The notes beneath the pieces are model-generated. The model ran no database searches, was not told where the DNA came from, and was given only the letters and a program-made list of their open reading frames with translations. Of a stretch of 64,000 bases of DNA, positions 53,280 through 58,766 are shown piece by piece. The DNA lies in assembly GCF_900184265.1 (NCBI RefSeq), contig NZ_FXXA01000002.1, forward strand, positions 3,455,983-3,519,982, written 5' to 3'. Numbering within the stretch: position 1 is the first letter of the stretch; every line of letters starts with the position of its first letter. Source of the DNA: Eggerthella timonensis (lineage in GTDB: Bacteria; Actinomycetota; Coriobacteriia; Coriobacteriales; Eggerthellaceae). The translations under genes were made by a program, and so were the position numbers.

Positions 53280-54014
53280 TCAGCGAGCCAACAGCGCACA
53301 GAGGCTGGCCACCTGGGCAGGCGTCAAGCGCAGCGCGTCGCGGACGTACGCCGCGAATCCGCCGGCTTGTCCGTCGATCTCGTCGAAGAACGCGCGCAGG
53401 TATGCGGGGCGCGCCTCGAGAAACGACCGGAGCACCGCGCGCTCCTCGTCCGTCATCCCCCGCTCGAGCTGTGACATCTCGCGCGCCGTCGCTTCGGCGT
53501 TCGCCTCATTCGCGGCCAGGTACCCGGCCATGACCTCGTCCTCGGAAGCTCCCGCGATGCGCTGCAGCACGGCGCACAGCACGCCCGTGCGGTCCTTGCC
53601 GTGCTCGCAATGCACGAGCGCCACACGGCGCTCGGCCGCCATCGTACGCAGGACGGTGCCCATGAGGGGGAACTCGCGCGCATAGCGTCGGTAGTTGCGG
53701 ATCATGCGCTCCTCGGGACGGCCGTACTCGCCGATGACGCCGGCCACGAGGCGACGCGACGCGTCGGAACGTCCGCGGTCGGTGGAGGGCTCGAACGCGA
53801 GCGTCTTCGCACCCACGATACGCGGCTCGGGGCTCGATGCGACCTCCCACCGGTTGCGCAGGTCGTAGATCGACTGCACGCCCAGCTCGCCCACCAGGTA
53901 GGCTGCCTCGTCCTCGGTTATGCGCGCAAGCGAAGCCGAGCGGAACAGACGCGCGCCCTCGAGCGGCCCGCCGTCGATAGCGCGCAGACGAATCCCACCG
54001 AACGCGCTGTTCAC
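53280..54014 (-). CDS. Tyrosine-protein phosphatase (Y_phosphatase3 type)
   Basis: A 244-residue phosphatase with the active-site loop 'VHCEHGKDRTGVL' (CX5R) near residue 133. The N-terminal segment 'LFRSASLARITEDEAAYLVG' and the following 'IYDLRNRWEVASSPEP' match the family that dephosphorylates phosphotyrosine or phosphoinositides. The start is a GTG at 54014 that overlaps the stop of the Ig-like gene upstream, with GAGGTGGAG before it. Confidence 0.88.
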   Translation of the reverse strand: MNSAFGGIRLRAIDGGPLEGARLFRSASLARITEDEAAYLVGELGVQSIYDLRNRWEVASSPEPRIVGAKTLAFEPSTDRGRSDASRRLVAGVIGEYGRPEERMIRNYRRYAREFPLMGTVLRTMAAERRVALVHCEHGKDRTGVLCAVLQRIAGASEDEVMAGYLAANEANAEATAREMSQLERGMTDEERAVLRSFLEARPAYLRAFFDEIDGQAGGFAAYVRDALRLTPAQVASLCALLAR

Positions 54015-54286
54015 GACTCCACCTCGAACGCATATTCCGCGACGATGTCCGACGCCGCTCCCGCGCCGTCGACCGCGCGCACCTTCAGCAGATAACGTCC
54101 GGAGCGCTCGGGACGATACACGAAGTGCCAGTTGACGCCCTTGTCGATAACCGCGCCCGACGTGGGGTACGTGGTCCAGGTGGCACCGCCGTCCAGCGAG
54201 AACTGCATGGCGGACACGTTGCGCTCGAAGTCGTCGACGTAGCCGTCGAACTCGATGGGCTCCCCTGCTCGATGCGCCACCGCCAT
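54011..54286 (-). CDS. Stand-alone Ig-like (Mo-co oxidoreductase dimerisation-type) mini-protein
   Basis: A 91-residue protein that is nothing but an Ig-like domain: 'IEFDGYVDDFERNVSAMQFS' then 'LDGGATWTTYPT', 'WHFVYRPERSGRYLLKVRAV', 'FEVES'. It closely resembles the C-terminal domains of the two sulfite-oxidase-fold proteins at 56111 and 57147. It has no signal peptide, so it is probably cytoplasmic, unlike its relatives. It is coupled to the phosphatase gene. Role unknown. Confidence 0.75.
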   Translation of the reverse strand: MAVAHRAGEPIEFDGYVDDFERNVSAMQFSLDGGATWTTYPTSGAVIDKGVNWHFVYRPERSGRYLLKVRAVDGAGAASDIVAEYAFEVES

Positions 54287-54384
54287 CCCCCTTCAACCAG
54301 CTGATCCTCCTCGTCGCGCGCGCCCGAAACGCGCCCGCCCACCGTACCATAACCGCGCAGCGCGCGCAAAACCCGCCCCGAAAC

Positions 54385-54417
54385 GCGAACCGGCAGCCGC
54401 CATGGCTGCCGGTTCGC
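54385..54417 (-). terminator. Terminator of the molybdoenzyme-NrfD operon
   Basis: GCGAACCGGCAGCC (54385-54398) pairs perfectly with 54404-54417 around a 5-base loop. On the minus strand it lies 38 bases after the NrfD stop and is followed by TTTC and TTTT. Confidence 0.65.
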
Positions 54418-54454
54418 ACGCGGAGGGCGGCGAGGGAGGGTGCCGCCCTTACGC

Positions 54455-55408
54455 CTATCCGATCAGGCTCATCACCGTTTCGGCAACCACGTCGGCATGG
54501 ATTCCGGCCGCAAGGATCAAGAAGCGAAGAGTGCATCCACCAATCAAAGCCCCCGCGGCACCGATAGCCATCGGAGAGCTGTAGCCCCGCCTCACACCTT
54601 GCCCGCGCTTGCGCAGAACCAAACCGGCCACGGCCATTGCAAGCGGCAACGCAAGGCCGCAAAGCACTACGAGACCCCAGAAGTACGGGGCAAGAACGCC
54701 CATTGCGAGCATCTCCGCCGATCGGGCGCCCGCCGCAGCTGCGGCCGACCCTTCTCCGCTCATCATGGCCAAAAGGAAAGCACTGAGCACGACGCACTCC
54801 ACCACTACGAGAAATACGACGATACGCTCCATCAGCACGCGAGCACGGGAAGCCAATGGATCCTTTTTCCCCAACAGCACCGCCACCACTTCCACAAGAG
54901 CAACGCCCGTGTCAACGCCGGACACCGCGAACAGGAACGGCAACAGCGGCGTATTCCACAGAGGAACGCCCGGTGCCATCATGAGCAGCATGCCCGTGTA
55001 CACGGCCACGAATAAGCCGAGCACGATGCCGACGACGGCCAACGCCTTCCGCGCGCGGACGAAACGCTTTCCCGTCTTCTCCATAGCCAGCACAGCCGAC
55101 AGCCCAAACACGGCGATGGCAGCAAACGCGCCCCAAGCACCGTAGGTCATCCACGAGGTGAAGTGGCTGAAGCTTTGCCACATCAAAAGCCCACGCGCAG
55201 GCTGAGTCAGCTCCGAGAGCAGCAAGAGCAAGCCGACGCCTAAGCTGACCGCCGAAGCCCACATGGAAATGCAGACTATTTTGGCATGACGCTTCTGGTC
55301 GATCAGGTAAAGTACCGCAGCCATGATGAACGCACCGGCGCCCATACCGCCCAGAAACAAATACAATGCAGGCTGCCAGCCCCATATCGATTGCAGCACC
55401 GTACTCAC
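54455..55408 (-). CDS. nrfD: NrfD/PsrC-type membrane quinone-interacting subunit
   Basis: A 317-residue membrane protein with eight to nine helices. The opening 'GWQPALYLFLGGMGAGAFIM' is the typical NrfD/PsrC start; these subunits exchange electrons between the quinone pool and a periplasmic ferredoxin subunit. The start is taken as GTG at 55408, just after the ferredoxin stop, with GGGGAAG upstream; a GTG at 55399 is also possible. Last gene of the operon. Its partner ferredoxin is directly upstream. Confidence 0.9.
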   Translation of the reverse strand: MSTVLQSIWGWQPALYLFLGGMGAGAFIMAAVLYLIDQKRHAKIVCISMWASAVSLGVGLLLLLSELTQPARGLLMWQSFSHFTSWMTYGAWGAFAAIAVFGLSAVLAMEKTGKRFVRARKALAVVGIVLGLFVAVYTGMLLMMAPGVPLWNTPLLPFLFAVSGVDTGVALVEVVAVLLGKKDPLASRARVLMERIVVFLVVVECVVLSAFLLAMMSGEGSAAAAAGARSAEMLAMGVLAPYFWGLVVLCGLALPLAMAVAGLVLRKRGQGVRRGYSSPMAIGAAGALIGGCTLRFLILAAGIHADVVAETVMSLIG

Positions 55409-55409
55409 C

Positions 55410-56069
55410 TCACTTCCCCGATCCAAGCAGCAGACAAGATGGATCATTCGCTTCGGCGATGGGAACCGCAGAGCCGTTCGTTGACTCCAACAGCTCACTC
55501 AAGGGGCCGAACTTCAAGGCGCCGAATTTGCATGCCCTTACGCAATACGGCTCCTCGCCGATGGCAACCCCTGACCCGAGGCAGCAATCGCACTTATCCA
55601 TGGAAACGGCATTGTATTGCGGCACTTCGTATGGACATGCCTGATAGCAATACTTACAGCCTATGCACACGCTTGGGTTCACCCTTACGACGCCACTTGC
55701 GTCTTTCGAGATAGCGCCCGCCGGACACACGTTCATGCAACTCGGCTCCGCACAATGCATGCACGCGGTCGATACGAAGAACTTTTTCCCTCTCGTGCGC
55801 TTGAAGGACATGACCCTGCGCCTGTCAGGTGTGTCGTCGGAAAGGTTGTTCTCCTTCCTGCAAGCCTCGACGCAGCGGCCACAACCGGAACACCTCGCAA
55901 GGCCAACAAGGAAGCCATACCGTTCGCCATCGTTTGCGGTTTTCGAGTTCGTCCCTTCAGCATGCGCTTCGGCATTGGAGGTAACGACACCCCCCAGAGC
56001 AAACGCACAAGCGCTCGCTGCCGACGCCTGCAGCAACACCCGACGCGTTACGCTCGTCTTTTCTCCCAT
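55410..56069 (-). CDS. Tat-exported four-cluster ferredoxin subunit
   Basis: A 219-residue electron-transfer protein of the NrfC/DmsB/PsrB type. The Tat signal 'TRRVLLQASAASACAFALGG' is at residues 8-27. Four [4Fe-4S] cysteine groups follow: 'CSGCGRCVEAC', 'CMHCAEPSCMNVC', 'CIGCKYCYQAC', and 'CDCCLG' with 'CVRAC'. It should link the NrfD protein to the exported molybdoenzyme-like proteins. GAAAGGAGG precedes the ATG. Confidence 0.93.
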   Translation of the reverse strand: MGEKTSVTRRVLLQASAASACAFALGGVVTSNAEAHAEGTNSKTANDGERYGFLVGLARCSGCGRCVEACRKENNLSDDTPDRRRVMSFKRTRGKKFFVSTACMHCAEPSCMNVCPAGAISKDASGVVRVNPSVCIGCKYCYQACPYEVPQYNAVSMDKCDCCLGSGVAIGEEPYCVRACKFGALKFGPLSELLESTNGSAVPIAEANDPSCLLLGSGK

Positions 56070-56110
56070 GCTCTTCTACCTCCTTTCGATGTCAACGCGA
56101 TGCAGTTTGT

Positions 56111-57145
56111 CTACTCTTCGACGTTGAACACCACGCTAGAAGCAAGGGAAGAGACTGTACCGTCTTCGGTAACCGCTCGAACGTCAAGCTTGTACTCGCC
56201 CGCCTTTTCGGCTACGTAATCAAAGTTCCAATACACCCAGTCCTCGGTATTGGAGGAAGAAGTGTCGAACGTTGTCCAGGTCTCTCCACCGTCGAGCGAG
56301 AACTCCACAGCGACAACCTGCGTTCCGCAGTCGTCGGCATACCCCTCGAAGGAAACCATGTCGCCAACCTTGAACACGTCCTGAACCGTGCTGAGGATGC
56401 TCACCTTGGCCCGATAGTCCGCATCCGGGCCCTCGACCTCGGGAACCTCGTCCGATACGGACAGCTCGATATCGGTAACCGCACGCGTGAAGTATTTCGC
56501 AACCGTATCGGGAATCCACGCCTGCAAACGCTCCCCATCAGAAAGCTTCTTATCGCCTATCTGGTAGACCAACATCGCTTCCTTTTCGGTCACGTAAGAC
56601 AGCGGCAGCGGAAGCCCATACCCTTCTTTATCCTTGAACGTGATGGTGTTGACCTCGGGAGCGATATCCACCAAGGAAAGCATGTCAGACACCTTAACAC
56701 CCGTAACGCTCGCCATGGCGACAGCGGGGCTCATGCCGCACGTGCAGCGTATCTCCTTTTTCATCTGGGCATCCATTTGCTCGATCTCGTCGAGGCTCAC
56801 CGTGTAGACTTTCTCCACGTTGCCGCCGATATTGAGATAGTAGCTCTCGTGACTCACCGCATCGAAAGCGTATCCCGGCTTGGCACAGATAGTAGTCGCC
56901 GCCGTGCCGAACAAATTGAATACGTCATCAGTCGGAGTAACCCTGTCCTGGCAAAATGAGAATGTGCCGGAAACATTCGCAATCTTGTCGTAATCTACCG
57001 CATTTCGTTGTAGCACCTGGTTCGGACCAAGGTCCTGCGACGACGCCGCCATCGCCAATTGAGGGCCCACAGCTCCTATACCGCTCAATACGAGACCGGC
57101 ACCTACCGTGCAACCCAGCACCCGTGCACCCATTGCATGCTTCAT
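56111..57145 (-). CDS. Exported sulfite-oxidase-fold protein with Ig-like C-terminus
   Basis: A 344-residue protein with a Sec-type signal ending 'QLAMAA' near residue 34. A molybdopterin oxidoreductase (sulfite oxidase) fold covers about 100-235 ('VEKVYTVSLDEIEQM', 'GVKVSDMLSLVDI', 'YGLPLPLSYVTEKEAMLVYQ'). An Ig-like dimerisation domain covers 255-344. The place of the Mo-binding cysteine is probably Cys134 or Cys136 in 'EIRCTCGMSP', a poor match to the usual R-C-V-E-x-W, so the cofactor is uncertain. Second gene of the operon. Confidence 0.8.
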   Translation of the reverse strand: MKHAMGARVLGCTVGAGLVLSGIGAVGPQLAMAASSQDLGPNQVLQRNAVDYDKIANVSGTFSFCQDRVTPTDDVFNLFGTAATTICAKPGYAFDAVSHESYYLNIGGNVEKVYTVSLDEIEQMDAQMKKEIRCTCGMSPAVAMASVTGVKVSDMLSLVDIAPEVNTITFKDKEGYGLPLPLSYVTEKEAMLVYQIGDKKLSDGERLQAWIPDTVAKYFTRAVTDIELSVSDEVPEVEGPDADYRAKVSILSTVQDVFKVGDMVSFEGYADDCGTQVVAVEFSLDGGETWTTFDTSSSNTEDWVYWNFDYVAEKAGEYKLDVRAVTEDGTVSSLASSVVFNVEE

Positions 57146-57146
57146 G

Positions 57147-58766
57147 TTATCCCTCCATATTGCTCTTGGCGGTGACCATTACCTTTTGGGGAGTGGTGGT
57201 CACAAGACCGGTCTCGGTTGTAGCCCTCACCATGATCACGTAGCTGCCATCACTTTCAGGCGTCCACGTATAATGCCAGTACACCCATTGCCGGGGATCG
57301 GTTTGACCGAGATCGTACGCCGTCCACGTTTCGCCCTTGTCCATTGAGAACTCAAGCTTGACAACTGCCTGATCGTAAGCATCTGCATAGCCCTCGAACG
57401 TGAAAGGCTTGCCTGTTTCGATGATCTTTCCTTCGGGAACCTTGAGAATGGTGGCATTAGGCTTGTTCATATATTCGCCTTCACCATACGAATTGAAACC
57501 GTTCATCATCCAGTCCGACCATGGCTTTTCTTCGTCAGTGAGGGTATAACCCATGCACTGCTTCACGAACGATTGAGCATCACATCCCTCCACCCAGTTG
57601 ATGCAGGGACTTCCTGAACTGGGATCAAGCGGCTTTCCGCCAATCTCGTAGACAAGGTAAACGTCGTCGAAAGAGGCCTCAGGCACACCGCGCTTGCTAT
57701 GATCTTGAACCCCATTGGTATGGAATTCGCGACGATCGAACAAGGCACCGGTAATATCCTTGCTAGCGCCGCCGCCCTTCTCGATAAGCCAATTCAAAGG
57801 TATGCCCGTTATCTCAACGTTAGAGATGCCACCGCCACCGGGCATGTTATCCACGCAGTGAATCTTGGACAGCTTCGTAACCGTGACCCCAGCACTCTCG
57901 GCTTCCGCGATAAGGTCGGCTAACTTCGCCGTGTACGGCTCGTTCACCAGACCATCGATCGTGATTTCCCAGTTGTCGACAAAATCTCGAGGCAGCTGCT
58001 CGTCGAGAACGTTTTTACCCATGATATGAATCATGCTGTCGTACTTGGAGTGGATCCAGTCGTAGGTGAACATATCTTCAGGAGCGGTTGTTGTATCCTG
58101 ATCAAAAACGAAGTCGCCTTGAACATTCTCAACTTCGACGATACCGTCGAGATGATCGTATTTGACATCATCCCAAAGCTCGACGCCTTCTCCGTTCTCT
58201 GTCATGTTGTGGCAGCTGATGCATTCACCACCTTTTTCTTCGAACGCTTCCTTGTTGCGCTCGCCGTTGTGGATACCGTGCATCAATGTACCCATTTCGT
58301 AGCCGTCGTCGTCGCTATGACAGAGCATGCATTGATCGACGGTGATCTCGTTGCCCAAAGCCTCGTTCCAAATAGTGGTATGGCTGTACTCCATATTGGA
58401 TAGCACATCCGCGAGGTCTTCGTGGCACGCACCGCAACCACGATTGTCGGCATCGAGATAGTAGTTGTTATAGGACGTACCCCCCTCATAGGGACGATTC
58501 CAGTGATAGCACTGGTATTCGGTTGGCGTGCGCTGGACCTTGGTACCGTCCTCCAAGGTGCGTATTTCCGGAGCGTACTGCTTATTGATCTCGTCCTGTC
58601 GAGCCTGCACTTCGTCGTAATAGGCTTCAGTCTTCTCGATGCTGTTTTCGTACGTAGGTTCAGTTGAGGCGCTGTCCTCCGCCGACAAATCTTGCTGAGC
58701 GCAGCCGACAGTAAGCAATGAACCTGCCATGAGCATCGCGGTAGCCAGCACAAACTTTTTTCTCAT
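57147..58766 (-). CDS. Triheme cytochrome c / sulfite-oxidase-fold fusion lipoprotein
   Basis: A 539-residue exported lipoprotein (lipobox 'LLTVGC', Cys22). Residues about 80-200 hold three haem sites, CGACH (111-115), CMLCH (146-150) and CISCH (182-186). Residues about 245-430 are a sulfite-oxidase-type molybdopterin fold, with the candidate Mo ligand Cys304 in 'KIHCVDNMPGGGGISNVEIT' and 'DDVYLVYEIGGKPLDPSSGS'. Residues 450-539 are an Ig-like dimerisation domain. First gene of a four-gene operon with a second such protein, a ferredoxin and NrfD. The substrate is unknown. Confidence 0.85.
   Translation of the reverse strand: MRKKFVLATAMLMAGSLLTVGCAQQDLSAEDSASTEPTYENSIEKTEAYYDEVQARQDEINKQYAPEIRTLEDGTKVQRTPTEYQCYHWNRPYEGGTSYNNYYLDADNRGCGACHEDLADVLSNMEYSHTTIWNEALGNEITVDQCMLCHSDDDGYEMGTLMHGIHNGERNKEAFEEKGGECISCHNMTENGEGVELWDDVKYDHLDGIVEVENVQGDFVFDQDTTTAPEDMFTYDWIHSKYDSMIHIMGKNVLDEQLPRDFVDNWEITIDGLVNEPYTAKLADLIAEAESAGVTVTKLSKIHCVDNMPGGGGISNVEITGIPLNWLIEKGGGASKDITGALFDRREFHTNGVQDHSKRGVPEASFDDVYLVYEIGGKPLDPSSGSPCINWVEGCDAQSFVKQCMGYTLTDEEKPWSDWMMNGFNSYGEGEYMNKPNATILKVPEGKIIETGKPFTFEGYADAYDQAVVKLEFSMDKGETWTAYDLGQTDPRQWVYWHYTWTPESDGSYVIMVRATTETGLVTTTPQKVMVTAKSNMEG

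Follow-up and report, generated by a model that had tools for sequence, protein, structure and literature searches.

A four-gene operon joining sulfite-oxidase-fold proteins to NrfD

The window examined here, a stretch of 64,000 nucleotides from Eggerthella timonensis, carries on its minus strand a four-gene operon in which two exported proteins with the sulfite oxidase fold are encoded together with a ferredoxin and a membrane subunit of the NrfD type. The first gene (57147..58766) encodes cytSO, a lipoprotein of 539 aa with a Sec-type (general secretory) signal that combines a triheme cytochrome domain, a sulfite-oxidase fold and an immunoglobulin-like (Ig) domain resembling the Mo-co dimer domain. 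Its fold was matched by Pfam (Oxidored_molyb PF00174, E=2.3e-12), the lipobox and three CxxCH motifs were read from the sequence, and the multiheme and Mo-co_dimer matches were sub-threshold. The heme stretch (58209..58436) includes C111-H115, C146-H150 and C182-H186 as well as H129, H163 and H166, and the three motifs and three histidines are invariant in 53 of 53 cytSO; by pattern, two CxxCH were counted in eleven cytSO of a 127-sequence set, one of these being incomplete. Cys304 (57855..57857) aligns with the Cys of SorA and corresponds to the Cys that ligates Mo in sulfite oxidases.

The second gene (56111..57145) encodes SO2 (344 aa; PF00174, E=2.8e-10), another exported sulfite-oxidase-fold protein with an Ig domain and a Sec-type signal, which displays a CxC motif at C134-x-C136 (56738..56746). 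It is followed by the gene of a 219-aa NrfC/DmsB-like ferredoxin (55410..56069; Fer4_11, E=1.8e-18) of the Tat (twin-arginine translocation) type, whose four [4Fe-4S] motifs and TRR signal were recognised in the sequence, and by the gene of NrfD (54455..55408; PF03916, E=2.1e-31), the quinone-interacting membrane subunit. With the putative GTG start of NrfD at 55408 the intergenic gaps are 1, 41 and 1 bases; an alternative longer open reading frame (ORF) starting at 55498 would overlap with the ferredoxin gene. The initial annotation of this DNA had described four consecutive genes, a spacing of 1 to 41 bases and the absence of an enzyme carrying bis-molybdopterin guanine dinucleotide (bis-MGD), all of which was borne out: the ORFs and Pfam matches agree with it, no bis-MGD gene was found in the operon, and the nearest of the 49 PF00384 matches in the genome lies ~174 kb off. 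The operon is not a product of chance, as other genera have these genes in the same order.

Distribution of the cytSO-SO2 pair

The 3.92 Mb genome contains 15 PF00174 ORFs, which are held by eight cytSO-SO2 loci, with SO2 split into two ORFs at one of them. In the genome-wide look for sulfite-oxidase-fold genes beside nrfD that the initial annotation had proposed, the ferredoxin and NrfD genes were found at two of the eight loci, the window and L036. The initial annotation had mentioned neither this set of paralogs nor the Ig and phosphatase genes described below. The closest named cytSO, at 82%, belongs to Paraeggerthella hongkongensis, and cytSO occurs in at least 30 of 119 genomes of the family (E<=1e-20) as well as in metagenome-assembled genomes (MAGs) titled Lachnospiraceae, Clostridia, Blautia and Oscillospiraceae. 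In addition, 80 loci were fetched, representing the best-scoring listed cytSO matches with the window's own genome excluded and some 20 weaker listed ones outside the set. They hold 86 cytSO, and SO2 adjoins cytSO on the same strand in 85 of these, the exception (L193) lying near a contig end. A ferredoxin together with NrfD is present on the same strand for 26 of the 86. The window order cytSO-SO2-ferredoxin-NrfD was found in eight named loci (L043-L049, L051) and, with a diverged cytSO, in L064, L067 and L075; L072 has the gene order of L036, and a reversed Ig gene lies in between in L084 and L093.

Variants of both proteins were also encountered. SO2 consists of two ORFs ~90 bases apart at L039:13707-14857 (minus), the second with a good ribosome-binding site of its own, and it is likewise in two pieces at L148 and L149. 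Three clostridial cytSO, chosen for their long N-termini, have an extra N-terminal FMN_bind domain (L082:81-1895, L092:536-2356 and L078:117-2009), which by analogy might link the family to flavin-based extracellular electron transfer.

The associated NrfD and quinone coupling

The 37 NrfDs linked to a cytSO-SO2 pair form one clade (100/99), separate from the 21 others; the tree covers 18 of the genome's 25 other NrfDs and is without the six NrfDs of this type that stand apart from any pair. NrfD is present in 11 of 11 rows of the window-type cytSO clade. Mapped on the cytSO tree by a quick method, the NrfD linkage requires at least six changes, indicating that the quinone module was joined or lost repeatedly. 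When the 119 genomes of the family were searched with the window NrfD type, a listed cytSO was no more than 7 kb away for 30 of the 36 best matches; the remaining six comprise one that runs off its contig, four in the vicinity of FAD_binding_2 flavoproteins and one for which no partner was recognised. For more distant NrfDs, a bis-MGD gene adjoins in four of the eight loci inspected and lies ~4.5 kb away at a fifth (L249), and FAD_binding_2 genes adjoin at two loci. The same quinone module therefore appears to work with exported partners of several kinds. The statement of the initial annotation that NrfD and a four-cluster ferredoxin normally serve bis-MGD enzymes proved overstated, for the accessible part of PMC8076601 names cytochrome, NiFe and Dsr partners as well; a sulfite-oxidase-fold partner is not among the table entries of that part.

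Residues E66, S85, Y137 and T138 of NrfD are invariant (12 of 12) and were equated, by spacing only, with the quinone-site residues given in the accessible part of PMC8076601. Given the conserved operon and the single NrfD clade, the genes are most naturally read as encoding an exported redox chain linked to quinone, and a quinone coupling of cytSO-SO2 is supported at the level of sequence.

Fold and cofactor site

Structure prediction, another check put forward by the initial annotation, gave sulfite-oxidase-like models for both proteins, with AlphaFold mean pLDDT (predicted local distance difference test) values of 86.9 for cytSO and 82.7 for SO2. The best structural match was SorT for cytSO (Z 21.8, rmsd 3.1, 283 aligned) and plant sulfite oxidase for SO2 (Z 21.7, rmsd 3.1, 260 aligned). 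In this family the His and Arg of the HGxPxR motif and the Trp of the KW motif contact the molybdenum cofactor (Moco). The site was compared across 127 cytSO, 119 SO2 and an outgroup of 14 distant relatives, and all three residues are present in the whole outgroup (14/14 each). The HGxP His is found in 11 of the 127 cytSO, the PxR Arg in 12 and the KW Trp in eight, and none of the 119 SO2 has any of the three; His and Arg occur together in 14/14 of the outgroup, 0/127 cytSO and 0/119 SO2, the window proteins having neither.

The site of SO2 displays features of its own. All 119 have Gln in place of the PxR Arg, and the odd cysteine context pointed out in the initial annotation is not only correct but general, CxC being found in every one of the 119 SO2. 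C136 falls in the Mo-ligand Cys column of the site alignment, where the HMMER alignment places C134 instead, and C87, Q208, W210 and R221 are invariant across 53 SO2. In cytSO, ~12 residues that follow the Cys in SorA are absent.

Export route and Moco genes of the carriers

Attachment of c-type hemes takes place outside, on unfolded Sec substrates. Redox proteins that load complex cofactors in the cytoplasm are exported folded via Tat, according to the accessible part of PMC4228395. A fusion of c-hemes with a Moco domain would thus pose a conflict of export routes, as the hemes need Sec and cytoplasmic cofactor loading needs Tat. As classed by sequence pattern, a Tat-like signal is borne by five of the six outgroup proteins with long N-termini, by two of 122 cytSO (L155, marginal, and L199_459, an FMN_bind protein rather than a cytSO and outside the 86 counted) and by one of 119 SO2 (L080, marginal). 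Among ferredoxin matches of all kinds the pattern is met by 27 of 43, and the window ferredoxin has TRR. The signals of cytSO and SO2 hence look like Sec rather than Tat signals.

In five of 13 clostridial genomes with cytSO (G119, G121, G124, G126, G128), all of them MAGs of unknown completeness for which mis-binning is possible, no MoaC, MoeA, above-cut-off MoaA or PF00384 was found. rpoB is at least partial in all five, and ribosomal protein S9 is present in three and lacking in two. The G119 assembly has two cytSO (L050 and L094), whose contigs measure 60 and 45 kb.

Proposed mechanism and rival readings

The account favoured here, held with a confidence that falls just short of even, is that of an exported redox module coupled to menaquinol, which most likely acts as a terminal reductase by way of a non-canonical site. 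Electrons would pass from menaquinol through NrfD and the Tat ferredoxin to three bis-His hemes of cytSO and from there into the sulfite-oxidase fold, to a site that probably belongs to a cytSO-SO2 heterodimer. The fold would have descended from Tat-exported relatives of the molybdenum type, with the Cys kept, the His, Arg and Trp of the Moco site lost and export changed to Sec as required for c-heme attachment. The site probably works without ordinary Moco, which is unlikely in view of the loss of these three residues and the Sec export; it may bind another ligand or use conserved cysteines such as the CxC of SO2. An outward flow of electrons to an acceptor is suggested, by analogy, by the FMN_bind fusions and by an NrfD type common to flavoproteins. 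Of the quinone-coupled chain with a Mo centre that the initial annotation had envisaged, the first half stands, NrfD and ferredoxin belonging with the pair by the conserved operon and the single clade, and the Mo centre does not fit the lost HGxPxR and KW residues, the Sec-like export and some carriers seemingly without Moco synthesis.

A more far-reaching proposal, entertained with doubt somewhat outweighing belief, is that cytSO and SO2 represent a Moco-independent redox family built on the sulfite-oxidase fold, in which the Cys was kept, the SO2 pocket rebuilt around the invariant CxC and Gln and a near-invariant Arg, and Sec adopted for the c-hemes, the pair having spread in gut Eggerthella until a genome has eight loci and also having entered seemingly Moco-less clostridia.

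Several observations weigh against the favoured account. Adjacent NrfD is absent at six of the eight genome loci. The Mo-ligand Cys is kept throughout (outgroup 14/14, cytSO 127/127, SO2 119/119). All 127 cytSO keep the G and P of HGxP, the 12 cytSO with Arg and the 11 with His retain part of the old motif, and the KW Lys position is occupied by Lys in 107 cytSO and by Arg in the other 20, and by Arg in 117 of 119 SO2. With the Cys, the HGxP G and P and the KW Lys or Arg kept, a pterin-type site is possible; the conservation as a whole points to some site still under selection, other than the canonical Moco site. Of the 30 cytSO-bearing Eggerthellaceae genomes 29 were taken into the Moco gene tests, with MoeA in 29/29 and MoaC in 28/29, so that the window's own family can make Moco, and the MAGs that seem to lack it may be incomplete or mis-binned. 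Furthermore, the export classes are pattern-based and the direction of electron flow is argued by analogy.

The strongest rival, in our judgement rather unlikely, regards both folds as non-catalytic, so that cytSO-SO2 would be an exported relay or docking scaffold handing electrons from NrfD/ferredoxin or other donors to separate flavoprotein or bis-MGD reductases. The loss of the canonical site is in keeping with this, as is the proximity of the same NrfD type to FAD_binding_2 flavoproteins, and a FAD_binding_2 gene lies 3.7 kb from the L037 pair. More weight is given to a relay by L038:4941-10045 (plus), where a bis-MGD gene (818 aa, PF00384 E=3.6e-47, PF01568) and a Fer4_11 gene directly precede the pair with no NrfD, an order that also counts against the favoured account and is repeated in three other genomes of the same genus (L151, L152, L155). 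When 163 loci were searched by tblastn with ten bis-MGD queries, 12 gave a match; it adjoins the pair directly in these four loci alone and is more distant or at the locus edge in the other eight. Against a mere relay, a working site is suggested by the Cys, CxC and Gln, all of them invariant, by a nearly invariant Arg and by the invariant C87, Q208, W210 and R221 of SO2; eight diverged loci in a single genome match substrate specificity better than a generic relay, and no reductase gene of another kind adjoins the window operon.

That cytSO, SO2 or both are canonical Moco enzymes of the sulfite oxidase family, coupled to quinone via NrfD and ferredoxin, is improbable. PF00174 scores above cut-off in both proteins, the folds match at Z ~21, the Cys is invariant and the tested Eggerthellaceae have Moco genes; however, the HGxPxR His and Arg never occur together, the Trp is mostly lost, both proteins bear Sec-type signals and one bears c-hemes, and cytSO is found in Moco-negative MAGs. 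More improbable still appears a reverse flow, in which an exported donor would be oxidised in the sulfite-oxidase fold and electrons would run via the hemes, ferredoxin and NrfD to menaquinone. The nearest solved relatives, SorA and SorT, are dehydrogenases, and quinone is reduced by some of the NrfD complexes covered in the accessible part of PMC8076601, but the FMN_bind fusions and the NrfD type common to FAD_binding_2 flavoproteins point to acceptors, neither of them decisively. It is scarcely credible that NrfD and ferredoxin serve a bis-MGD enzyme encoded elsewhere with cytSO-SO2 as a bystander, for despite the 49 PF00384 matches in the genome and the bis-MGD genes adjoining more distant NrfDs in four of eight loci (and ~4.5 kb away at L249), the operon is conserved across genera with a single NrfD clade, and no NrfD-type locus among the 163 has a bis-MGD gene directly beside the module, the match at L045 being ~5 kb off and that at L210 an edge fragment.

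Neighbouring genes

Downstream of NrfD the window contains a stand-alone, leaderless ORF of the Ig or Mo-co-dimer-like type (54011-54286, minus; 91 aa, or 89 aa from an internal GTG), which weakly matches the C-terminus of SorA (E=0.0034) and whose end is overlapped by a gene of the tyrosine phosphatase family (53280-54014, minus; PF13350, E=5.4e-44). Between NrfD and the Ig ORF lies a near-perfect, GC-rich hairpin (54360-54440, minus) with a folding energy of -48.6 kcal/mol (z -3.06; none of 200 shuffles was as stable), possibly an attenuator or terminator; it was unflagged by the terminator scan, and the counts of the promoter and terminator scans were at chance level.

In the fetched loci, a stand-alone or fused Ig gene lies within 3 kb of 45 of the 86 cytSO, a count that leaves out L159, L161 and L162, which match only the phosphatase part of the fused query. 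Leaderless Ig genes of 90-95 aa stand beside the pair in the window, L036:5989-6276, L037:9982-10260 and L040:10356-10634 and also in L067, L083, L084 and L093. In L036, L037, L040 and L041 such a gene accompanies an SO2 without an Ig domain of its own. As in the window, an Ig and phosphatase pair follows NrfD in the Eggerthella loci L166, L207 and L212, and the two are fused in L069:8557-9579. The joining of SO2 to the Ig ORF by frameshift or readthrough was considered but does not hold generally, since the reading frames are related differently at different loci and the Ig gene may lie on the opposite strand (L084, L093) or ~2 kb upstream (L083, L086). Several SO2 matches in other genomes cross one in-frame stop, so that readthrough may occur in single cases.

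The genome as a whole harbours a very large respiratory and regulatory set, with 49 PF00384, 27 NrfD and 110 LuxR-type helix-turn-helix (GerE) matches in 3.9 Mb. Single in-frame TGA codons, indicating selenocysteine or broken genes, occur on contig C2 in bis-MGD matches (3334806-3336083, 2609862-2610410 and 2590365-2591708) and in NrfD matches (212562-213395 and 1965603-1966475). LuxR regulators of Eggerthella reductases with 12 transmembrane segments have been described (PMC9734109, accessible part). Four of the eight loci have a LuxR-type gene no more than ~3 kb away; with 110 GerE matches in the genome, this proximity is not clearly above chance and was discarded.

Comparison with known systems

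In the accessible parts of the open-licence literature, no description was found of a sulfite-oxidase-fold protein with NrfD or of the cytSO-SO2 pair. Fusions of cytochrome domains to members of the sulfite oxidase family are mentioned in general terms in the accessible part of PMC6147048, PMC8238504 and PMC11334425 mention neither molybdopterin nor sulfite, and a census of E. lenta counts COG1053 and COG0243 proteins (PMC13060105, accessible part). With the usual Moco site seemingly lost, the cytSO-SO2 pairs may represent an overlooked kind of respiratory system in Eggerthella-related gut bacteria. If this holds true, censuses of gut respiratory enzymes would miss an expanded class (15 PF00174 ORFs in this genome), the sulfite-oxidase fold would be separated from molybdenum in electron transfer, and the locus would show clearly that a single NrfD/ferredoxin unit has been put to use by unrelated exported partners.

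SorA, SorT, SoxC and the plant and chicken sulfite oxidases resemble cytSO and SO2 in the central fold, the Ig-like dimer domain and the position of the Mo-ligand Cys. They are molybdoenzymes, whereas the cytSO-SO2 pair has a broken HGxPxR motif, a triheme fusion in cytSO and Sec-type signals. NrfABCD, PsrABC, MccACD and others share the quinone module of NrfD and a four-cluster ferredoxin, some of them with c-type cytochromes (PMC8076601, accessible part), but the partner pair with the sulfite-oxidase fold is the feature of this operon. Compared with the Nrf nitrite reductase in particular, cytSO has three CxxCH in contrast to the five hemes of NrfA or NrfB, and the NrfC and NrfD models score far below cut-off. 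Complexes of the dimethyl sulfoxide (DMSO) reductase type have a bis-MGD catalytic subunit, and the operon is without one.

Two further systems come close in single respects. PruR, as portrayed in the accessible part of PMC13259868, is likewise a secreted sulfite-oxidase fold without Mo and binds pterin, with a structural similarity of Z 12.9-14.2 over 124 residues; it differs in that Trp replaces the Cys and that it is a single domain of ~170 aa, two traits that cytSO and SO2 do not have, and further in its lack of heme and its signalling role. The catechol dehydroxylases of Eggerthella, on the accessible part of PMC11574389, resemble the present system in their expanded paralog sets, exported reduction, ferredoxin and membrane subunits and occurrence in the same genus, and differ in their bis-MGD catalytic subunit of the DMSO reductase family.

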